Below are positions 5,351-63,766 of a DNA stretch of 64,000 nt, piece after piece; within the stretch, counting starts at the first letter, position 1; each line of letters starts with the position of its first letter. The DNA lies in contig JAIGNY010001813.1 in the NCBI GenBank assembly GCA_020152595.1, positions 793,501-857,500 on the forward strand, in the 5' to 3' direction. A program made the position numbers and the translations under genes. Below the pieces are notes generated by a model, which did no database searches, was not told the origin of the DNA, and was given only the letters and a program-made list of their open reading frames with translations. The DNA is from Chiridota heheva. Its lineage: Eukaryota; Echinodermata; Holothuroidea; Apodida; Chiridotidae.

Positions 5351-5782
5351 CCGAGCGGAAATCCAAGGCGTATGACCAGAAGCGAGCAAAAACAAGATGA
5401 GTTTACAAATGACAAGTATAGTGACCAGGTGACATAGAGTTAAACCAAATGGGTACAAAGAATGCGGAACCTAAGAGCAGAAAAGGGAGAAGAAAAGGAC
5501 AAGTGAAAAGGTTATTTGTTGCAGTCAAACAATTTAAACAGAAATGGGGTTAAAAGAGGAATCCATATAGGCGTAGGAAATACGGGGTTGGGGTTTCAAC
5601 CTCCAGTAAATGTTAGGGCTGAAATATACTACAGCCACCACCATTTGTTTATTTAGCTATCAAAATACTTTTGCTACAATGAAGCAGGCTATATCTTATT
5701 TGTGTTGGTTGACTAAAAGCTCGGCGTGAACCTCCTCCAAGAAAAAGTTATCCACACAGCTGCACAGCTAGAACCTATTAAA
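5351..5782. other. Unannotated spacer
   Basis: Nothing recognisable lies between the 20-bp array and the (AT)n tract. The open frame from 5726 runs straight into the microsatellite and is not a gene. Confidence 0.5.
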
Positions 5783-6640
<858 letters not shown>

Positions 6641-7159
6641 GTTTCAAATTTAATCTAATTTTTATATCCCAAACTGGGTAGTAATTGCACTAATTTTCCC
6701 CTAGTTCCCAGCCCCTACACCTATGAATGCATATAATTGTGTCCAAAGTTCGTCATTAAATGTTACCAGCTGCTGATTGTGATACATTAATATATATACT
6801 TTTTTACTAATGATTTTTAAATGATAATGATATGATGAGAATATTTGTCGGTTTCAAAGATATTGTATGTCCTTGACAAATTATTGTGACGTCATCTGTT
6901 TTTTTTAATATCGTCTTTCACACACTTTGTATTCTTTATTTACCCTTTGCTTTTTTTTTTTTTTTTTTTTTTTTGCGTCATTAAATATCTTCGGGCATTG
7001 TCCTATTCAATTCACCAACTTGTTGTTTTCAGGTGAAGATTGAAGGAAGTTACAAAACAATAAAGCTATTCCGCCCGATTAGCTTTTTGTACAATTGTGG
7101 TGCGTCAGCAAGCGGTTTCGATGCAATAGCTATGCGATGTAAGTTATACTGTATGGATG

Positions 7160-9256: not shown

Positions 9257-9847
9257 ATGGCCTTTAATTTTTATCATAATGCATCTTGCGCTTACTTTTT
9301 AATAAGATGGACTATTATCAAGAACTTCGCCAAAATTATTAATTTTTAACAAATGCTCTGATAACACCAAAACAATGTGATACAGATCCTCATCTGCTCA
9401 TCAAAGAAATAATTATTCACACACCTCCCTTGTATAATTATGATGTACAAAGTGTTCCTAAATTCCTGTCTTAATTAACCATTTTATTAAACACTTCAGG
9501 ACTTAAATGAAACTCACGGGAATTTACAGAGGATACTACAACAACCCTTTTAAATCAACCTAAATTAGCTTCACTTCGAAAACGAAGTTTCTTCAGGATG
9601 GTTTTCAACTAAGTGTGTCATTTGAATGAATTAATCAGCGGAAGTGACCCCATCGACCTTATCTTTGAACGGATGTCAATGCGATGACTTTAAGTGATAT
9701 GTGAAATTAATTGTTTCAAATTGCTTTCACTGTGACAACTATTAGTGTGCAGTTTGTTCGAATCTCTGGAACAGATTGCATGCGCACAATGGCCTAATTC
9801 TTTTTTAATTTATTATTATTATTTTTAATTTTAGCTTATTGTGATCA
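9257..9847. other. Non-coding spacer between LINE relics
   Basis: This AT-rich sequence has no recognisable gene. It ends in an (AAT)n tract that belongs to the 3' tail of the next minus-strand LINE. Confidence 0.5.
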
Positions 9848-11090
9848 TAATAATAATAATAAATTGACATTTATATGGCGCCAAAATTATAAACATGTAA
9901 AACATACTTATGCTCAGTGGCGCCGTACATGAAAGAATACGTAAGACAAACAAAATACAAATTACAAACTATAGCAATATAGAAAATAAAGGACTTTAAA
10001 CCTTTTTTAAATGAGTCTAACCCTTCAACGCATCTCAGGTCTGTAGGATGAGCATTCCATAGAACTGGAGCAGAACATTTAAAGGCTCGTGGCCCGATAG
10101 TTTTTGTGCGAGAACAGGTTTTTTTTATATATAAATTTGTGTTAGAGGATCTCAGAATTCTTGTAGGTACGTAATCACTTAAAATATCTTTTAGATACTG
10201 AGAAGCAAGTCCATGCCTGGCTTTAAAGGTGAGTAATACGATTTTATATTCAATTCTTTGCTCAATTTTTAGCCAGTGTAGGTCCTTAAGTACTGGTGTA
10301 ATGTGCTCAAATTTATGCTTGTTTCTGACCAGGCTGGCAGCAGCGTTTTGAACATGCTGCAATTGATTAATTTGATGTTTTAATATACCATATAAAACAC
10401 TATTGCAATAATCCAAATTTGAAGTGATAAAGGCATGTACAAGAGTAATCATACATGTATTACTACATGTACTAACATATTGTCTAATTTGTTTAAGTTT
10501 AAATAATTGACCAAATGCTTTAGAGGGGATTTGTTTTACATGCAAGTTCATTGAAAGATTATTGTCAAAAACAACCCCTAGGTTTAAAACAGGTTTTATT
10601 TCAGAGTTTCCAACAGTTATACAATTAATGTTAACCTTTAATAACATTTGATTAATACCTATTAGCATGAACTCAATTTTTGAATAATTTATTTTGAGTT
10701 TATGAGTTAACATCCAGATTCTGATGTCGTTGATACATGTGTTTATAGTCTGAGCAGTTGATTGTTCATTTACATCTTTTCCAGGCTTAAAAGACAAATA
10801 AACTTGGTGGTCATCGGTATAGCCACCTACAGACGGTAGATGTCTATCAATAAAGCGAGCTGAGATAGCCTAAGAATATCATAGGGCCTACACAACTGCT
10901 CTGGGGAACACCATAATGCAGTGCGAAATGCTCAGACAATTCGTTATTTATTTGTACCTGAAGTTTACGATCGGAGAGATAGCTTTGGAACCATTTCCAT
11001 ACCTCATTACCTAGACCAAATTTGTTTCTGAAAATATCACTTAGAATACAAAAATACAAAAATCATCCACGGCAGCGCATGTTTCATTAA
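9848..11090 (-). pseudogene. CR1/L2-like LINE reverse transcriptase, 5'-truncated
   Basis: The minus strand carries the second half of a non-LTR reverse transcriptase. Positions 11059-10850 encode WFQSYLSDRKLQVQIN and a GVPQSS..GP block. After a frame break, the YxDD catalytic box appears as YTDDHQVYLSF at about 10830-10790. A long frame (10797-9871) then carries the thumb and C-terminal region, with LDYCNSVLYG, LQHVQNAAASLV, LHWLKIEQRIEYKI and FKARHG..SQYL. The 3' end, ggcgccatataaatg followed by (TTA)n, is typical of this LINE group. The endonuclease is missing and the frame is broken near the catalytic site, so it cannot be autonomous. It is of the same broad family as the plus-strand relic at 13.4-14.6 kb. 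Confidence 0.88.
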
Positions 11091-14624: not shown

Positions 14625-15011
14625 TCCTATACAGTCGCTACCGTAGAGATGATGTTATAATCACCCGTATTCATCTTGGACATTCCTTTCTTACCCACTC
14701 CTACCTCTTATCAGGCTTCCCAAACCATTCTGCCTCACCTAAAATACTGAACTTTTGATCATTCATATCCTCTTAAGCTGTCCTTTATAATCCAACTTCA
14801 GATCTATCCTCTCCCCCTCAATAGCAGCTCTCTTTAAGAAACATTCCTCCGACGACATCATTATCTTCCTCCGTTAACTTATTCCACTTGACCTAATCCT
14901 CGCCCATTCTTTTTTTCTTTTCTATCCTTACTTACCCCCTTTCTATTTCTTCTACTCTTCATACTCCTCTTATCAAAATTCTATCGGTTCCTCTTCCTCT
15001 CGTTACTCTTG
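14625..15011 (+). pseudogene. RNase H-type LINE tail, left piece
   Basis: Translation near 14640-14715 resembles the C-terminal RNase H-associated block of I-superfamily LINEs (VIITRIHLGHSFLTHSYLLSG). The better copy at about 29.77 kb reads VVTRIRLGHSPLTHSHLL. A pyrimidine-rich 3' region follows and is interrupted at 15011 by the TIR element. It resumes at 20408 with cacatttgactttgactgtcgcagtgccgtaaaacatcaacaaac, which matches 30127-30170 of the other copy. Confidence 0.75.
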
Positions 15012-15170
15012 CACTCTAAAAAAAGGTTGGTCAGATATCTGACCATTGTGCTTGGTCCGCTCAAATTTCCCGCGATCTGACCACAGTGTAGTCAAATATC
15101 TCACGTCCTGTGGTCATACCAAGGAGATGACGCTGACCACAGTACGTGGTCAGAAAATATACGTGTTTTC
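15012..15170. repeat. Left terminal repeat of the SAMD3-like element
   Basis: After the 14-bp TIR comes ggttggtcagatatctgacca, a near-perfect palindrome. Further TGGTC/GACCA half-sites follow at about 15055, 15080, 15110 and 15130-15150. The right end has the same half-sites in denser, tandem form. Confidence 0.8.
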
Positions 15171-16965
15171 ATTGGCTTAACTACGGGCACTTACGTAATA
15201 CTACCAAACCAGTACCGCTGACCATCGCCATCTTGGAGACTTAATGGAAACTCGCGTGAATTTCAACCTAAAGTAACAAATATCTAATGCAGATATGGTG
15301 GAAAACGTGGAAAACTTGAGGAATGTAACTTAAATGCGTTGAAAGAAACGTTTTCCGGTGAGTGGAATTTGTTCGTTGAATTTTTGAGCAGTTTCGTTGT
15401 TACTTATACACACTGCTAGTCTAATGTTGTTTTGCAAGGTAGCGCCAGTGCGGTATAGTACGTTAAGATACGTTAAGACTTCTTGAGTGTGACTTTCCCT
15501 TTGAAAAACTTTTCTGGAAGTATACTGACGAATGCAGGCACATTTGATAGTTTCGCGTACCTTAATTAGCATTGCTGCGGCATTTTTTTCGTATTATGCT
15601 TTTGATTTGGTTAAATTTGACCAAGTTTAAGCTATCCTGGATTTAGAAATAACGTTAGGAATTTGGTTCAAATTTCAAATCATAGTTATATTGATATTCG
15701 GCCTAGTTAGGTTCAAAATGAATTAATTACGACTGATCCAATGTAAACCAAATCTAAAGCTATTCATGAAATAGGCCTAGGCTTCTCGTTTTAACCACTT
15801 TTTGTACATCTGTAGTCATAATTTAGGCATGTCTGAGATAAAGTCAAATGCAGAAAATATACAAATCAGATTAGTTATAGGCTAACATCGTACCTCTTTG
15901 AATATGCAAATCATGCAACCCACAACAGTATCTTTGTTTCCTTGCCTTGTTGTTATGTATGTTGCTAGGTGTCGAGGAAGTCTTGGTAGTTTATATCCTG
16001 TTTACTTCGTTTGTTCTTTGTATATAATTGTACTGTGTGTGCAGCAATGGGAATGGGAATTTTGTAAAGCATTTTAAAAACAGTGGACATTTAAAAAAAT
16101 TGCACTGCGCAAAAAAAGAATTGGACAATTTTGCAAAGCATTTTAAAACAGTACACATTACGAATGGAATCTACTGTATGATGGCTGTCAAGGCTTAAAT
16201 TATACATTTCTTTTTCTTTTTGTGTTATTATTCTTTAAAGTAGAGTTTAGAAATAAAAATATGCAAACAATGTACGGTGTCACCTTAATTAAATCCAAAT
16301 ACTCTCACTAATGATGTCTGGAAGGGATGTTTTTATAGATTAAAAAAAAAAAAAAACAGTGGTATAGATTTGGAGAAAACCTTGTATAATATTTTGTCTT
16401 CAATTAAAATCTGTAATGATATTTTTTTCCAATAATTTATGAAATAGTTTTTCTACAGAATAAAAGTCGTAAAAATGCAATCAAGTTTTTGTTAATGAAG
16501 AAATGATTGTCTGTGTACTGATGTATTGCTTTTGTGGGAATTTACTCACAGAAGTTGCATGAATCTAATTTTATTGGGGGTGTGTGAAAAAAGGGGTCAT
16601 GTCTTTTTAGAGAAATAACAGAAAAACAATAAGAGACCTAAGGATAGCACCAAAAAGGCTGAAAAATTGCACATTTAAACTAGGGGTTGGGGGTGGGGGC
16701 GGCATTATTTCGGCATTTTCTTGAAATTGTTTTCTTGCTGGAATTTCCTTCGTATTTTTTTTTTTTTTTTTTGCGGGAATTTGATACTATGTGCGGAATC
16801 CCGCATCTAATTTAAACACTGCATTACAGGTAGGTGTTAAACTGTAGTGTGTTTTTCACATTTTAATCCTTCAATGTAGCTTACCATGCAGGCTTTGTCA
16901 TTCTTGTAAAATCAAAACTAAAATTATCTGGCCTACATTTTTGAGAATCTGTTTTACTTTAACAG

Positions 16966-17108
16966 GAAGCATGGTTTTCCAGAGGCAGAGGAAGCCATTC
17001 TTCTTCTGGATATCTCGAACAGCGGTTGAGAAATGTACGGAAGAAAACAGGGAAGAGTCAGGGCCGTTACATCTTAGAAGCAGCCAGTTGCCAAGATAAC
17101 CTTACCAG
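16966..17108 (+). CDS. SAMD3-like gene, internal exon
   Basis: This 143-bp block is bounded by a pyrimidine-rich acceptor (ttttactttaacag) and a donor (ccag/gtaaga). Its only open frame reads EAWFSRGRGSHSSSGYLEQR, then LRNVRKKTGKSQGR. This basic, Trp-containing segment is what I expect in the middle of SAMD3-like proteins. It ends in phase 2, and splicing to 18497 keeps the frame open into EHQPFILY. Upstream exons, including any SAM domain, were not found between 15.3 and 16.9 kb. The assignment rests mainly on linkage to the next exon. Confidence 0.55.
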
Positions 17109-18496
17109 GTAAGATAAATGTATATTTTACAGGTTGAGGTTTTGTATCCAGTGTGATATTTTCACAAGATTATTTTGACCTCACCATAAGAATGATTGAA
17201 TGATTCTGTCAAACCATGTTTATGCACTGTGTGAAGGTCAGCAGTCTACATAAATGGCAATGTTCCTGGAATAAGGCCCGAGTCAGATAGCAAAAAAACA
17301 ATGACACCGTGAACTGGACCCTATCCGGGTACCATAAAATTAACAGTAACAAAGATAAAAGAAAAGAAATATCAGCAAGTTAGTCTTCCCAGTTTTGTCA
17401 GTAACATATTAAGGTCAGCATTATGTCAGCATCGACTTCACATGTCAGCACAGTCTTAGAAAAGGGGAATGTACATTCAAAATCGAAGTCAGATAAATTT
17501 AAGATATGGGCACTTTGTCTTGTAAACTGTGAAACAAATGGTATGGTAAAACAATTTCTTAATTTTTATTTTCAAATTTGTGATCAGCGTCAGGTAATAC
17601 AAATACTACTGTACCAGGCCTAACTTCTAGTATCCAATTCCGGTCGAATTTTGTCTGCCCCTATCCATCAATATCTATTTTTGGGGGGGTAAAAGTTGTG
17701 CAAAATTTCATGATTTTTAGTCTTTTTGAGACAACTTTTTCAAGAAAATAACATAACTATGGATCGCAATACACTTACTGCACGACCAAGGTACTTTGAT
17801 GAAACTTACTTAACATATTTTTAATTAAAAACATGAAGAGCAAACCATTCTCCCTAATTCAACAAAGGACATGATTTTTTTCTTTACAAAAAAGGCATTC
17901 AAAGTTTTCAGATACCCGGTGGCTAGTATTGTATGATTCAATGCAAATTGGACTGTCTGTCCAAACAGGATTTACTCGATAACATATGGATGTCACTTAG
18001 TCTTGTCACCATATCACAAATATGAATAGGAAAAAAACACATTTAATTTGCAATTATTTTCATTTTATGTTTTGGCATATACAAACACTCAGAGGGATTC
18101 ACCTTTTCTAAATATCAAGGAATATTGGACAGCTACAGCATATTCTCTTGCACCTCTGTGATTAAAAGGAGCATAGATCAGTCTTCATCAGGCATTCTGA
18201 TTTTACGGATACAAATGATTGTACAATAAAATTAGGCTTTCTTAATTTAATTGTTGCTTCAAGAGAATCAATTTTGTTTAGAATTTTCTGCCACCTGGCA
18301 AGTGTATGAATATTCATAATCCAAAGCTGCACAACGTTTTTAAATCTTGGCAGAAGTGTTTGTTACTTGCATTGTTTTTATTCTGATTCAAGAGGTTTTA
18401 AGTTATGTTTCTTACATATTGGTCAGTATAGATTTCTACGCTTTTAGCATTTTACTCTGAATTCAAATTGTAACTAATTTTTCCTTATATTTACAG

Positions 18497-18817
18497 ATTG
18501 GAACCAACATCCCACACATCTGGAAAGGGTTCAAATTGTAAAGAGCATCAACCCTTTATTCTTTACTAGGATCGCGTTTCTCTCCAAGTCAAGTATTTTT
18601 GGTTGTTGACGGTCTTGCCTTAGAACAGCCCTCACTACTTAAAGCCGTTGATGTCTTTTTAAGGCTTTTTACGTGTTTAACCTCCACTACCCCAAGCAAT
18701 GTCACACCACGTGGGAATTTGTGCAGAAGTTTTTGTTTCAACTCACGGACGGTAAGGGGAAAAATAGTAACTTCCCCTGCAGTACGGACTCTTCGCACCT
18801 ATCTTGAAAAGGATTGA
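18497..18817 (+). pseudogene. SAMD3-like gene, last exon with three frame breaks
   Basis: An acceptor (ttatatttacag) precedes an exon encoding the conserved C-terminal part of SAMD3-like proteins. The frame enters as EHQPFILY. After a one-base shift near 18565 it continues as PSQVFLVVDGLALEQPSLLK and AVDVFLRLF. A shift in a T run near 18665 leads to YVFNLHYPKQCHTTWEFVQK and FLFQLTDGKGK. A compensating shift in an A run near 18760 gives IVTSPAVRTLRTYL and a stop at 18815-18817. The YP..C..TW.F.Q signature is what I recognise as typical of the family. Two of the three shifts lie in homopolymers, so assembly error is a real alternative to pseudogenisation. The molecular function of the family is not established to my knowledge. 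Confidence 0.75.
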
Positions 18818-20098
18818 ACATGCAGTTATTGTCTCCCTGGTGTGCTAGGTATTTTTTGCTTCTTTTATGTTAGCGGGTATTTTATGTTGGTTTATATTAA
18901 GAGTTTTAAATATCACTTTCATATATATGGTAAAGGACTTTTCAAAGAAATAAATTGATGTCAAAATCATGTTGACATATATTTCTCTATATTAGTTATT
19001 ACCTTTAAAAGATTTTAGCAGTGTGCTTAAAAAGCTTGATTAGTCACTTTTCAGCATGCTAGTGATATCTTTTAAATGAAGTAACTCATTTAATAAGACT
19101 TTCTGTGTAAACATCAGCAATAATTACATTTGTTTAAAGTCCTCATAGCTTAGTCAGCTTTAGCGTAGATATTCTGATTGCAAGATCTTGTTTTACTAAG
19201 CATTTGATGTGCTTTTTAGTATTAGATAAAAGAAAATTATTATGTTCTTTGTCCATACTACCTAAAAAAATATTTCAAGTTATGTTTAAAAGTTATTAAA
19301 TAGGACAAGTTTGAATGCAAGCTTCCAGTAATGCCTTATAAAATGCACGGATCGCTTGTTAAGGAGGGTATACCTGCTTTTTCTTTACAAAATTTCTAAC
19401 TTTATCTTGATCTAATTAAAAAATATTGCAATCTTCCCATTGTCACCTGGACGCCAACCTTTCAGTAAAATTTAGAAATCTCTGCGTCTTCATTCTCAGT
19501 GAAGGAGTGTTTTGTTCGAGAGCTTATTTCACCATTTGTCTGTCTTTCACAGTAGCTCTCAGAGACTTTGTTCATTTGATATTTTTCTTGTGCATATAAA
19601 GAATTTTTAACTATTTACTTTATGTATTTTGATGTTATTTTCAAATTTAAACTTGTCAATCCTCTGTTGCAATGCTAGCATTAAACCAAAAGTCTTCCAG
19701 AGAGTTTTTATATAGGGGTAAACAAGTTGGCATAATTTCACAGTTGCCATTCTTCCTTGTGGGCAATTTAAGTTACTATGCAGTTGTTGAGTAAAAGTTT
19801 TAAGAAGTATTTAAAAGTCACCTTGATGGTTTTAGCATGATTGTTTGCTAACTCTGTAATAATTTTGGTGTATCCAAAGTTAGTATTTATTTCCAAAGTT
19901 GAAAAGCCAGTGTATTTTTATGAGTTTCAGACCAAAAGGAATATTTTGTTGGCATAATTTGTTGATCTATTTAATAACATCGATTATCTCTTGTTTAATA
20001 ATACAATCCTCTGTTTTAATTCTGAGAAAAGAGTGTTACAAATAAAGTGAGCGTCAATCTGAAATTTCTTTGTTGTTGGTGTTTCTATTCTGAAAAGA
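18818..20098 (+). other. Probable 3' UTR of the SAMD3-like transcript
   Basis: This is AT-rich, with no domain-bearing frame. Candidate AATAAA signals occur near 18948 and at 20041-20046. The second is followed by a GT/T-rich stretch (tttctttgttgttggtgtttc), the usual downstream context for cleavage. The region would be the untranslated tail if transcription runs to the right terminal repeats. Confidence 0.45.
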
Positions 20099-20407
20099 TT
20101 TGACCAAGTATTAAGTCAAATTCACTATTTTAGAGTCAATTTGACCACTAAATGTTGTCAAAAGATTGACCAAGTTGTGTTGGTCAAATGATTTGACCAA
20201 CCTTGGATGGTCAAATTTGACCACTTATGGTTCGGTGCAGAATTGACTACCCAGTTGGTCAATTTGACCAAGTTGGCGTGGTCAAATGATTTGACCAAGC
20301 TTGGATGGTCAAATTTGACCACATATGGGTCGGTGCATAGTTTACTCGGCACTTGGTCAAAATTTGACCACATTGTGGTCAAATTTGACCATTCTTTTTT
20401 TAGAGTG
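20099..20407. repeat. Right terminal repeat: 98-bp units of TGGTCA/TGACCA
   Basis: Two 98-bp direct units begin at 20171 and 20269. Each contains tggtcaaatgatttgacca, ttggatggtcaaatttgacca and a ggttcggtgca-like phrase. A partial third unit runs into the 14-bp TIR. The unit is built from palindromes, giving open frames on both strands that are not genes. Confidence 0.85.
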
Positions 20408-20490
20408 TGCACATCAATTTTCAACACCCTGCTGACACATTTGACTTTGACTGTCGCAGTGCCGTAAAACATCAACAAACAAACAAATTA
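20408..20490 (+). pseudogene. RNase H-type LINE tail, right piece
   Basis: The phrase cacatttgactttgactgtcgcagtgccgtaaaacatcaacaaac is nearly identical to the 3' terminus of the LINE copy at 29720-30192. It is therefore the continuation of the tail interrupted at 15011. Confidence 0.8.
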
Positions 20491-22228: not shown

Positions 22229-22767
22229 CCTTAGGTGTGTTACGGTCTTTAGGCTCCCTACGGGCATGTCACAAACAGGTGGGTTAGTATAACTGATCAG
22301 GAGTGATACAGAAGTCAGATTTGACTCTAATGTCATTCATGCAGTGAAAGTCAAAAATAGTTATCGAACCAAAGTAGACACCGATTTTAGAAGCTCTAAA
22401 ATTCTGTTTATTATCAAATATATGGTTATGTACAGGAATTAAATTTTGGATGGATAAATTGTAGGATTTTGTTATGAAGAATCTTCTGATTGGGAGACCA
22501 AATCTGTCCTCCCGATTGGGAGTAGTAGAGTACGTAAACAAAACGAGCTGACATAGTCGCTAAAGTGACGTCGACCTAACTGCTGACAGGTTAAATTAAA
22601 GAGTTTGCTCTAAACTCCTTACCAGGCACAATGAGTTTATAGACAAGAGTTTTAACCGGTAGAAAAACTGCCTAAAAGTGACAAACACATTTCTATTTAA
22701 AAAATATATATATATATATATATTTTATCTATTTACATTTAAGATGTTGTAATTTTGACATAATTCG

Positions 22768-22821
22768 TTTTCTCTCTTTCATTCTAATATAGGTCGTTCA
22801 TCCTCCAATCTAAATTACAAA
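22768..22821 (+). promoter_or_regulatory. 5' UTR splice acceptor and leader of the Ig gene
   Basis: A pyrimidine-rich tract (gttttctctctttcattctaatatag) ends in AG at 22791-22792. The following 29 bases lead to the ATG with an adenine-rich context (ttacaaaatgg). This suggests that an upstream non-coding exon is spliced onto a single coding exon. The upstream exon was not identified. Confidence 0.55.
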
Positions 22822-24357
22822 ATGGAACTCAGGATGGGCCATGTGATCTTCTATTTCATTTTAGTATGCTTGCCTATTGGGGTTCACTGCAATGTTGGCA
22901 TATCTTTAAACACTTCACTGTATTCTGCTCTGCAAGACTTTCAATACTATGTTGCAAAAGAAGGCAATTCAGTTGCTATCACCTGTACGATAAGTTCGAG
23001 GAGCTTTAGTCCGCCATCTTTGCTTAAAGTAGCTGCTGATGTACCTGTATTGTTGGCGGACAGTGGAACTCCTGTTATTGAAAGTGCACGATATAGTTAT
23101 ACAATAGACAATTATGATTATACTGTCACGGTAAACGGAATAACTTCTGAGGATGCTGGCGAGTATTATTGTTGCTCGGAAAATAAAGCGCTGTGGTTTT
23201 ACGTCAGTTATTCATGCAGCAATGCGTATCTACACGTAGAGAAAGCACTTCCTGAACCTATGTGTGTTTTAAACAGTACAGGTGATGGGTTTTACATGGA
23301 AGGAGACCTTATAAAGCTCACATGTGTATTACCAGAAGAGATCCTTGATAATTTCAACGTCGCAGTGCTCAATGCAGGACGTACTTCAAAGCTGAAATTA
23401 GACGATGATTTTGAATTTGAAATTGATGGTGTAGCATACAGCGAAGTAGTGTATATTATCGAAAGTGCAAGCAAAAATAAACATGACGGGGCGACCTTCA
23501 TCTGCTATCTAGACACTGTAGCTGGGCGGAACTTTTGCGAATATTTACCGTCAATTCGAGTTATCGATGAAATAAACGTGGAATTATCTCCACGAGTGCT
23601 TTCAGTCGATGAAGGGGGTTCTGCAATATTTACATGCAGAAGTTCAACACCTGTAGGCGAAGATAAGTTTATGTGGAGTTTACTTAATGTTTTCACAGAA
23701 AGGAAACTAGCTGTAATGAAAACGACGACTTCAGAGACAGGACATTCGGTTCTAAGGTTGAGTGAAGTCATCAGCCACGACGGGCGAATTCCTTCACTAA
23801 CAGTGTCTTGCACAGTTTCAATTGCAGGGAGTGAAGCCACAGCCACAGCTATTTTATTAATCCTACAAAAAGAAATCTTGACAACAACTCCGACCGTACA
23901 GTTTCACCCAACAAAACTTTTTGATGAAAGTGGGCAGGAAGAACCTAGAAATGAGAACAACCAACCAGGAACTATAATCGCGATTATAATTTCTATTGTT
24001 TTTGTAACTTTGCTAATTGTGTTTGCAGCTTTCTTCTGGTGTATGGGAATTCACAAACCAAAACATCCTAACCTAACAAAGGAAGAGATTACCAATGCAA
24101 CAGTGATAAATCCTGGATATACAGATGATGACTTCATAAAACCAAGGAAGAATGTCAGAAATCAAAACAATCACAGGACGAATCAGTACATGCACGATGA
24201 AAAGTCGGTATCAAGAACTGATTCTGTGGCAAATCATGAATATACATATGTGACGTATGATCATCAAGAAAATAATACAACTACGGGATTAACTGTGGCG
24301 AGTTCCGAAGTTATTTATAACTCTGCTTATGAACCATTTAACGGAGATAATCCTTAA
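22822..24357 (+). CDS. Three-Ig-domain type I membrane protein
   Basis: This is an intact 511-residue frame in one exon. Residues 1-23 form a signal peptide (hydrophobic core IFYFILVCLPIG, cleavage near VHC/N). Three Ig-like domains follow, with disulphide pairs at about Cys55/Cys117, Cys168/Cys228 and Cys272/Cys330. The first has the classic DAGEYYC motif plus extra cysteines (Cys118 and one in SYSCSN). A Thr/Pro-rich stalk precedes a transmembrane helix at about 384-408. The roughly 100-residue tail carries an NPGY motif (NPxY type), YTYVTY and VIYNSAY tyrosine sites, so phosphotyrosine or PTB-adaptor signalling is plausible. No clear orthologue is recognised. It looks like a lineage-specific Ig-superfamily receptor or adhesion protein at the cell surface. 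Codon use is regular and there is no frame damage. Confidence 0.88.
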   Translation: MELRMGHVIFYFILVCLPIGVHCNVGISLNTSLYSALQDFQYYVAKEGNSVAITCTISSRSFSPPSLLKVAADVPVLLADSGTPVIESARYSYTIDNYDYTVTVNGITSEDAGEYYCCSENKALWFYVSYSCSNAYLHVEKALPEPMCVLNSTGDGFYMEGDLIKLTCVLPEEILDNFNVAVLNAGRTSKLKLDDDFEFEIDGVAYSEVVYIIESASKNKHDGATFICYLDTVAGRNFCEYLPSIRVIDEINVELSPRVLSVDEGGSAIFTCRSSTPVGEDKFMWSLLNVFTERKLAVMKTTTSETGHSVLRLSEVISHDGRIPSLTVSCTVSIAGSEATATAILLILQKEILTTTPTVQFHPTKLFDESGQEEPRNENNQPGTIIAIIISIVFVTLLIVFAAFFWCMGIHKPKHPNLTKEEITNATVINPGYTDDDFIKPRKNVRNQNNHRTNQYMHDEKSVSRTDSVANHEYTYVTYDHQENNTTTGLTVASSEVIYNSAYEPFNGDNP

Positions 24358-31354: not shown

Positions 31355-59269
<27,915 letters not shown>

Positions 59270-60530
59270 GATTTTGCATGTGAATCCTGGGTCAAACAAT
59301 TTTCCAATAATTTTTCGATCAAAACTCCTGTACCATAAAAGGGGTCTTTTTTGTCAAAATAGTTATATCAAGAAATGCAGAGGAAGTTACTACTGCTGTA
59401 CTGCAAAAATCAAACTCTTGGATACATTCCGTTTGTCTCAAAAAGCTAAAAGTTTCAATTCCACTACTACAAATCTTTACTGCAACATAATATATTGTTA
59501 AATTAAAAAATTTGAATGCGTTTTGCAATTCTTTTGAAAAGAGGTGTGCCAATCGAACCCTGAAAGTTCTTAAAAGTGCATAAAATCGTGATTTTAGTCA
59601 AGAAACAATGTTGATCTTAATCTGTTTACCTAATAAGTTGAATAATTTTTTATGAATTCTGAATCTAAATTTATCAATTGCTAGTAAATAGTAAAAGGGC
59701 AGATGTTTGTGCAAGAGGTGGATTGTACTAAATATTAGTCTAAGGTAAACATGTACTTGCGCTGCAATCTTTATTCTGAGAAATTATGAATAATGTAAAG
59801 GAATCGAAAAATTTGTTTTTATACTGAAATATCAACCTAGCTGGTCTTCAGCAAATTAATTTTAAAATTTCATACATGGTTTTCTATTGTTATGAGTTTT
59901 GAGTTTTTCGAATGCGTGAAACGTACCAAGTGTTGTAGAACGTAGTTAGTAATTTTGTTGTTCTGGTTGCTTGTTTTAGTCCAGAATAGGATTGTAGAAA
60001 GGAGGGTATTTGGGGAGGGTATGGGTGGTGTTAGAAATTGTACGGTAGAGTTGAGCCTAATATTTTCCTGGGGTGTTGGGATATTGTGTGATATATCCAA
60101 GAGTTGTACGTAATAGTTTTACGATAATTGGTTACCATTTTTATAAAAAAATAATATTAAGGCATAGACGAACAACAGCTGGTTCCATCATAGTGTAGCA
60201 CAATGTAAAAAGAAAAAGTGAATATATTGTTTAGTGATACACAAACATTCCAGGGATTCAAAATAGTTATCCACCATCGAGCAAATGTGTATTAAATGGC
60301 ATACATGTAATTTATTGATCCCTATTTTGGTCTTACAATAAAATTAAGATATCTTTTACAATACAATTTGTATCAATACGATTATTTTATAAGAAGATTT
60401 GGCCTAGATGTACTCCTGCAATCGGGTAAGTGTTGTATGATTATTTGTATTGTTCATCAACATAAATGTATTTTAATATTGAAGAAAAATAATGCTCATC
60501 CGTCGCAATCAATGATGGCCGAGGCTACAC
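59270..60530. other. Upstream region of the Tie-like gene
   Basis: The promoter should lie here or further right, but I cannot point to a core element. No other gene is recognised. Confidence 0.4.
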
Positions 60531-60838
60531 AATTTGTAGCTGGGGATGAATCTGTGGTTGGGGATGAATCTGTGGTTGGGGATGAATATGTGGTTCGGGA
60601 TCATGAATCTGTGGTTGGGGATGAATATGTCGTTGGGGATAAATCTGTGGTTGGGGATGAATCTGTGGTTGGGGATGAATCTGTGGTTGGGGATGAATCT
60701 GTGGTTCGAGATCATGATTCTGTGGTTGGGGATAAATCTGTGCTTGGGAATGAATCTGTGGTTGGGGATGAATCTGTGGTTGGGGATGAATCTGTGGTTG
60801 GGGATAAATTTGTGGTTCGGATGAATATGTGGTTGGGT
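60531..60838. repeat. 18-bp minisatellite (tggggatgaatctgtggt)
   Basis: About sixteen units are present, mostly 18 bp. Some carry an extra cat triplet (gggatcatgaatctgtgg). The unit is divisible by three, so frames stay open on both strands: repeated GDESVV on plus and HPQPQI on minus. No signal peptide, start context or flanking domain supports translation. Confidence 0.93.
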
Positions 60839-60879
60839 GCGGTGTGTACGTAGATGTCTCTTCCATACATTAGGAAAAG

Positions 60880-61112
60880 ATTCACTTGGTTGGTGTCACG
60901 TCACATCCAGGAAATGACGTCATTTGCTGGAGTGAAAATAAACCTTTGCGCGATACATGTGGGCAAATTCGTATGCGTTTACTGTGTGCGGTACGTATGG
61001 CATGTAAACAAACACAGCTGAACGCTTTGTTTTCATTCCAATGCAAGGTGAATGCGCACAGTTGCTATACCGTCTGATGACCCCAGGTCACATTTCCAAC
61101 CAATTGAATAGG
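60880..61112 (+). mobile_element. Candidate MITE with attca-ttggttgg ends
   Basis: The left end attcacttggttggtgtcacgtcacatccagg is mirrored by the complement of the right end (attcaattggttggaaatgtgacctggggtcatc). A related copy of the left half lies at 48466-48555 on the minus strand. It is non-coding. Confidence 0.6.
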
Positions 61113-61775: not shown

Positions 61776-62300
61776 TCAACTGTTTTGAGATCATGCCTCT
61801 TTAATGTTATACAAGGGGCACGGTAATGATGTGTTCTTATACTGCGCTATATCCACCCAAAACGCATGCTCAATGCCCCATGATTAAAAAGACAGTTGTC
61901 AACAGAAAGTGTACAAACCTGTACTATTACCCTGGTTTATTCCCTTATGCTGAGCACCAAGCGAGAAGGCAACAGGTGCCAATTTCTGAATCAGGCTTTG
62001 GTATCACTCGACCCGGATTTCAAGCGACGACCATCCGGCTGGAAAGTAACGTAGGTGCTCTACCAATGAAACTAAACAGTCGGTAAGACTTGATTGTTTT
62101 CTGTTCCAAATATGATTAAATTTTGTATTCTAGGTAACATTCAGCAATTAAGAACAACAATTTCCTTTCTAAAATAAAAGTGGAATTTTGGGCTGATTTT
62201 GTAACCTTAGGCTATCGGTAAAATTGGCGCAAGCTGCTGTAACGTTGCTTCTTTGCTATTGGTAGAGAAATAGCAAATTTGTGATGCTTTTTGAGAGTTG

Positions 62301-62570
62301 CGACGACGACGAGTGAACACACAATTACAATGACGGGGTCTTCGCTTGCGTATTCGGTTATGATAGAAACAATGCTATCACGAAACGCTTAATACGACCC
62401 AGAAGAAAACACTGGTACGACGTACGGACAGACATAACATCGACAACCAAGTTAATGTCCACGGCCTTTGATAATCAGTTGTGGTACACTGGCGTGTCTA
62501 CCAAAGCCAGGCTTGAACCGAGGGCCTCGTGGTCTGTAGACAGGTATTATAACGGCTACGCCACAGTAGG
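62301..62570 (-). repeat. tRNA-derived SINE, fuller copy
   Basis: Read on the minus strand from 62570, a tRNA-like head (gtggcgtagccg...tctacagaccacgaggccctcggttcaagcctggc) carries A-box-like and B-box (GGTTCAAGCC) promoter elements. The SINE body follows (to 62301) and shares about 190 bp with 2305-2496. It ends in a gtcgtcgtcg tail. Polymerase III transcription would run right to left. Confidence 0.75.
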
Positions 62571-62601
62571 TAGATATATATATATATTTTGAGAGTTCAA
62601 A

Positions 62602-62722
62602 TCGCACGGGGTTTAGATATGCTGCACGGGGCTTACATATGCTGCACGGGATTTAATTATGCTGTACGGGGTTTAAATATGCTGCATGGGCTTTAAATAT
62701 GCTGCACGGGGTTTATAAACGT
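62602..62722. repeat. 20-bp tandem repeat (tgctgcacggggtttaaata)
   Basis: Six imperfect copies are present in sequence, with variants such as gggcttacata, gggatttaatta and gggctttaaata. It is non-coding. Confidence 0.9.
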
Positions 62723-63766
62723 TGAAATAGATCACTATAGGCCGTGTGAATAAGATTATTTGTATCATTACAAGTTTGTTGTAAATATTCAAGTTGCCGT
62801 AAACTTAACATTAGGCCAGGTCATTTTTGCCAATTTTCATTGCCTAAGGTTATGAAATTGAATATTCATGTTAGGACGACAAAGCTTTTTCCCGACGGCT
62901 TGATATTACCTAGAATACAAATCATTGAATAAATATTTGGAACAGAAAACATTTGCAGTGAATGTGTTTGATGGACTAATGGGGCCCATACACCTTTATC
63001 AAAAAATCCAAAGTAGGAGCTTTCAAAAATCTTTTTGACTCAATAATGCTACTCATATTATCTTAGACAACTGCATTATACTTCATGATCATAACATTTC
63101 CTTCGAGTGTTTATACTGCCGTAAGCCCATCAATCTGCGCGGTATTAAAGGCGCATTTTGTGTATCATTACATATATCCAGCATATACATATAATACAGA
63201 GTTAATAAATAAGGTACTATGCATTCGGTGCATGATAATGCTTATAGGCTGAGCACAGATCAGATTGAGCGATCCACTTAATAAATGGTGTAGCTCTTTG
63301 ATACCCCTTGTTTATAGAACCCAAATAGGTAAGAGTTATATCGTAATCATTAAAATGAAGGTTTCTTCAACAAAACAAAAAACGAAAAAGGCGATGAAGT
63401 GATTGCCTCCCATTGCGATGCATTTTTGGATCTTTGGTCATTTCCATAGTATATGATGAAAAGATTGCTGAAAACTGTAGTCATTTGACATGGTCATTTC
63501 CATAGACCATTGTACAAATAACATAGTTTTGTCGTATTTACTATTAATCTGTATCATGTGATCATTTTTGGTTTGTTCATAGAGTGTTTTAACTCTCGTG
63601 AAAACGATCGAAGAATGTCGTGGTGATAGCCTAGCTGTTTTGTATTTGCCTTTGTTGACTCGAAAAACCAATGATACCTGTATGGCCTCTATTACTGCTC
63701 GAAGAAAAAACTAAAACACTCAATAATGAAGTAAATTGATGACAAATAAAAAAACAGATTTAGATA
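62723..63766. other. Non-coding stretch
   Basis: No gene is seen. 'catttccatag' recurs near 63441 and 63495. Confidence 0.45.

Follow-up and report, generated by a model that had tools for sequence, protein, structure and literature searches.

The window considered here, a stretch of 64,000 nucleotides (nt) from the holothuroid Chiridota heheva (contig JAIGNY010001813.1, positions 793,501 to 857,500 of the forward strand), contains at 15012-20407 an interval bounded by paired inverted ends, with palindromic arrays just inside both of them and the broken last exon of a gene of the kind named SAMD3-like in fish. We consider it fairly probable that this interval is one decayed, transposase-less and non-autonomous copy of a two-gene cut-and-paste transposon of the EnSpm/CACTA type (CMCT clade). 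The proteins of fish suggest that the SAMD3-like gene, rather than having been captured from the host, is the transposon's own second gene and stands beside a RAG1-like transposase; we infer that the window copy descends from such a fish-type element. Its features are as follows.

15010-15011: TG dinucleotide in the left flank, possible 2-bp target duplication
15012-15025 (+): left inverted end, CACTCTAAAAAAAG
15028-15224: left subterminal TGGTCA/TGACCA array
15028-15045: first left palindrome, TGGTCAGATATCTGACCA
16966-17108 (+): candidate internal exon between acceptor and donor splice signals, family membership unsupported
18497-18807 (+): broken last exon of the SAMD3-like gene, from profile, tblastn and splice acceptor
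20041-20046 (+): AATAAA, possible polyadenylation signal
20094-20391: right subterminal TGGTCA/TGACCA array, which includes two direct repeat units of 97 nt
20208, 20306 and 20376: right-array palindrome, TGGTCAAATTTGACCA
20394-20407 (-): right inverted end, CACTCTAAAAAAAG inverted
20408-20409: TG dinucleotide in the right flank, possible 2-bp target duplication

Paired ends and subterminal palindromes

An earlier, sequence-only reading of this DNA described perfect 14-bp inverted ends with palindromic TGGTCA/TGACCA arrays just inside them, and both observations hold. The ends match exactly, and around this 14-bp core the inverted arms reach 25 nt at 88% identity. The termini read CACTCT..AGAGTG, and thereby show the 5'-CA..TG-3' inverted termini expected of EnSpm/CACTA (CMCT) elements. 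Inverted 14-mers alone are not remarkable in this window, which holds 29 inverted k-mer pairs (overlapping pairs counted separately), while 20 Markov-simulated windows passed through the same filter hold 1 to 18 each. The case for a single element therefore rests on the features inside the ends.

The hexamers TGGTCA and TGACCA reach a density of 14 per kb across 15012-15512 and of 33 per kb across 19900-20407, compared with 0.5-1 per kb in the rest of the window. Six or more hexamers are found in 17 of 1271 sliding windows of 450 bp, and each of these 17 overlaps one end of the element or the other. Counted inward from either end, the first palindrome begins at base 17. When folded as single-stranded DNA, the right end reaches a z-score of -10.4 and the left end one of -3.0, and for neither end did any of 200 shuffles fold as well. 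A GCCATCTTGG motif, of the kind bound by YY1, lies at 15222-15240, just inside the left array.

The combination of paired ends and hexamer arrays is non-random. This bears on a chance neighbourhood, in which the ends would belong to separate short elements, or an element would fortuitously surround a host SAMD3-like pseudogene. The abundance of inverted 14-mers in the window speaks for such an arrangement, but the sole two hexamer clusters in 64 kb adjoin the two ends internally, their palindromes start at equal offsets, and a search allowing two mismatches found no second inverted end close to either arm. We regard a chance neighbourhood as quite improbable.

A broken SAMD3-like last exon

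The SAMD3-like exon follows a splice acceptor that ends at 18496. A profile of 526 positions, built from 114 of 120 listed fish SAMD3-like proteins (450-620 residues), gave one significant match in the six frames of the window, at 18652-18804 (E 3.5e-6, 22.9 bits, profile positions 479-512), while the best scores in 20 block-shuffled windows ranged from 1.8 to 7.1 bits. Similarly, 26 of the 27 tblastn matches of 239 fish proteins (E<=0.05) fall in this exon, with one elsewhere. The family match is split over two frames, about 18584-18658 in one and 18652-18804 in the other, and a stop interrupts the stretch from the acceptor to the family core. If the shift of frame is bridged by an X, the exon aligns colinearly with profile positions 453-512 (25.7 bits). 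The window copy of the gene is frameshifted and a fragment: the SAMD3-like family of the final exon, proposed from sequence alone, is confirmed, while the two signature peptides by which it had been recognised stand in different frames. No further significant match to the PB1 domain or the central core of the family was found in the six frames of the window, and the exon padded with X yielded 11 candidates in a protein database, none with E<=10.

The acceptor/donor-bounded exon of the same reading has its splice signals at 16966-17108; as a SAMD3-like exon it was rejected, as it does not match the fish profile (score -2.4). The AATAAA reported close to the right arm is present at 20041, and a second one occurs at 18949.

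Fish SAMD3-like proteins

As the window exon alone found no protein relative, a fish SAMD3-like protein sequence was used as query; the proteins retrieved with it are database records. Of 7991 scored candidates, 766 matched the query with E<=1, and the best 120 of these were examined. Among the matches listed, those that carry a name are nearly all from fish, with several clusters per species (for instance, six under the name Sarotherodon galilaeus). A structure model of the SAMD3-like protein (predicted local distance difference test score, pLDDT, 86) consists of a PB1 domain and a mainly helical rest. A domain scan of eight fish members found no SAM domain, and a weak PB1 in some. A fold search of the PDB with the model returned no recombinase among the best 50 matches, a search that tests little because the PB1 end filled the lists.

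A viral origin of the SAMD3-like protein was also considered and dropped, as its two matches with E<=0.001, both to ubiquitin-like proteins and both with low TM-scores, are accounted for by the PB1 end. Scans of viral contigs returned 87 stretches for the window exon and 16, 12 and 162 stretches in three scans with the fish protein and alignments, with no relatives in any of them. The left-end pattern was found in 15 viral stretches, none of which had the opposite end, and was taken as chance.

A transposase family joined to SAMD3-like proteins

Four predicted fish proteins from four species join the C-terminal region of a multicopy transposase family of about 890 residues to a SAMD3-like protein: P0017 (Collichthys lucidus), P0090 (Metynnis hypsauchen), P0049 (Merluccius polli) and P0193 (Mugilogobius chulae). 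The fusions were assessed with profiles built without these four proteins, and in all four the transposase part comes first and the SAMD3-like part second. P0017, P0090 and P0049 come from the SAMD3-like search and P0193 from a search with the transposase part. The latter used residues 1-220 of P0017; of its 484 candidates, 172 proteins reached E<=1e-3, and the best 120 were examined, with 70 of the 119 new proteins 840-960 residues long. In P0193, the SAMD3-like part lacks PB1 and begins at profile position 116, which would fit splicing of the first gene to one of the later exons of the second.

The transposase family (P0121-P0239) has a DDE triad with C(2)C and H(3-4)H motifs between the second D and the E. 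In P0145 these correspond to D371, D463, C483, C486, H693, H697 and E717, assigned by sequence order rather than by superposition and conserved in 67-68 of 68 proteins. The fold of the family resembles that of the RAG1/Transib core. By its motifs and modelled fold, the fish transposase is placed in the EnSpm/CACTA-Transib-RAG clade.

A separate DDE protein of a known clade adjoining the SAMD3-like protein in four species argues against a new superfamily with CACTCT ends in which the SAMD3-like protein would itself be the transposase, as does the model with its PB1 domain and helical remainder. The sheer number of SAMD3-like proteins, with several listed clusters per species, would fit such a role, and the fold searches say little on the helical part; even so, we find this explanation very hard to credit.

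Among genome contigs, the transposase alignment returned 75 stretches and a single relative, a contig from an Epulopiscium genome bin (L016). It carries broken pieces of a fish-type transposase in several frames at 9824-10401, and has no SAMD3-like match and no CACTCTAAAA end in the 11,649 bases covered; the pieces are probably host-fish DNA in the bin. Likewise, a fish-type transposase filed under a Candidatus Epulonipiscium fishelsonii genome bin (P0196) is probably host DNA.

Second gene or captured gene

The main competitor is gene capture, in which a non-autonomous element with terminal inverted repeats would have taken up the 3' end of a host SAMD3-like gene as passive cargo. It would agree with the last exon being the only recognisable part of the gene, with the lack of a transposase in the window and with the match of the exon to a piece of mammalian SAMD3, which is about as good as that to the best fish members. 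However, the SAMD3-like family sits 3' of the transposase in four fish species, so capture is not needed, and the position of the exon is that expected of a 3' second gene. We judge capture unlikely. The terms 'cargo' and 'whole gene' of the sequence-only reading are unsupported: of the gene, a last exon in broken form was found, and the fish proteins favour a second gene that belongs to the element itself. Its broader proposal, that a SAMD3-like gene moves with a terminal inverted repeat element in distant animals, retains the exon inside convincing paired ends and the four fish fusions, and loses the whole gene.

Several observations weigh against a two-gene EnSpm/CACTA element. One copy is known, within this 64-kb window; its TG flanks are seen at that copy, and a matching dinucleotide has a chance of about 1/16. 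The exon by itself cannot separate a transposon gene from host SAMD3, as a mammalian SAMD3 sequence ranks third of 115 as a match to it and the fish transposon genes are no closer as a class. No transposase is visible, as had been reported before: a profile of the fish transposase found no significant match in the window, its best (E 0.058) lying outside the element. This absence does not exclude EnSpm/CACTA membership, because non-autonomous copies lack the transposase. An N-terminal extension of more than 70 residues occurs in four of the 120 listed SAMD3-like proteins; in P0017, P0049 and P0090 it belongs to the transposase family, and in the fourth, P0009, it is 87 residues long and does not. 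The other 116 have no detected transposase part, which is expected of a separate gene, though it is no evidence for one. The contig scans made found no fish DNA with CACTCT ends, and a presumed fish end sequence used as query returned no stretches and no literature match. Lastly, the ends of the related TRC elements start with CCC, not CAC (PMC1636069).

The window's CAC..GTG ends, arrays and possible duplication on the one hand, and on the other the position of the SAMD3-like gene in fish, 3' of a transposase of the CMCT clade, converge on a single kind of element. A two-gene EnSpm/CACTA transposon is ranked ahead of gene capture, then a chance neighbourhood, then a SAMD3-like transposase.

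Proposed element and mechanism

In its complete form, the element would carry two genes. The first would encode a transposase in which C2H2 fingers and a RAG1-like DDE core are combined with a C-terminus of BAH-like type; the second, lying 3' of the first, would be the SAMD3-like accessory gene with a PB1 domain. Of gene 2, the window copy would have retained the last exon in a frameshifted state, along with the two ends and the palindromic arrays inside them. Pairing and cutting of the CAC..GTG ends would fall to a transposase made elsewhere. For the SAMD3-like protein, an accessory role is most likely: it could oligomerise via PB1 and bind the subterminal palindromes or otherwise help. A model for this role is TnpA, which helps transposition in plant En/Spm; by analogy, the SAMD3-like protein perhaps binds the palindromes as TnpA does.

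Relation to known systems

RAG1/RAG2 and ProtoRAG constitute a two-gene CMCT-type transposon. Their accessory gene is RAG2, whereas that of the fish element would be PB1/SAMD3-like, and the RAG1 core and the fish transposase core share about 10-11% identity. Vertebrate SAMD3 carries a SAM domain, in contrast to the eight scanned fish proteins, while a mammalian SAMD3 sequence aligns to positions 111-505 of the fish profile. Mammalian SAMD3 may be a domesticated relative of the transposon gene.

The window copy shares with EnSpm/CACTA elements the CA..TG termini, the subterminal arrays (a CACTA trait) and, if the TG repeat is real, a short duplication; the fish relatives add DDE, C(2)C and H(3-4)H in the transposase. 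It differs by having no transposase in the window. The superfamily has been placed within the CMCT clade (PMC12730594), and zebrafish EnSpm-N families are known (PMC3485254; PMC9341512); in the parts of PMC12730594 and PMC3485254 consulted, as with the other sources cited here, a PB1/SAMD3-like second gene was not found described. A 2006 report on animal CACTA relatives, including one in zebrafish, described ends that start with CCC, together with 2-bp repeats, in three species and recognised no ends in the others (PMC1636069). Among them are TRC elements such as SmTRC1, which has a Transposase_21 domain; 2-bp direct repeats, as possibly seen in the window, flank 7 of 14 Schistosoma mansoni copies. 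The parts consulted mention no SAMD3-like gene, and ends for the zebrafish elements were not found in them (PMC1636069).

A search of the open-access literature, with Repbase Reports outside its scope, found no paper tying SAMD3 to transposons; one with CACTCTAAAAAA returned unrelated papers only, and one for a BAH domain with transposase and CACTA had no match. With animal CACTA relatives and EnSpm-N already known, the transposase is of a known kind, and what is new is the second gene, the window exon and the possible SAMD3 link. The 'undescribed' mobile system of the sequence-only reading was accordingly only partly right, as the neighbouring fish transposase belongs to a known clade.

More tentatively, and with somewhat less than even confidence, we propose an animal lineage that combines a RAG1-like, BAH-ended transposase with a PB1/SAMD3-like gene, in which the many fish SAMD3-like genes would be the second gene, and from which vertebrate SAMD3 would have arisen by domestication, much as RAG1/RAG2 arose from a two-gene transposon. 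If true, many fish predictions named SAMD3-like would belong to transposons rather than to the host; an animal element of the CACTA type would have a defined second gene, like TnpA in plant En/Spm and RAG2 in ProtoRAG; and SAMD3, a named vertebrate gene, would gain a testable transposon origin.

Other features of the window

Further inverted repeat sets about 0.8-1.2 kb apart, possibly short terminal inverted repeat elements, lie at 56507-57750 and 62095-62951. An open frame of 532 residues with immunoglobulin domains is found at 22759-24357 (+). Another, of 332 residues at 9871-10869 (-), matches no Pfam family at cut-off and presumably resembles a reverse transcriptase of the non-long-terminal-repeat type, which is an impression only. 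Long simple repeats, open on both strands, occupy 5768-6689 and 54575-55107, and a minisatellite at 60509-60895 encodes tandem VVGDES-like units.
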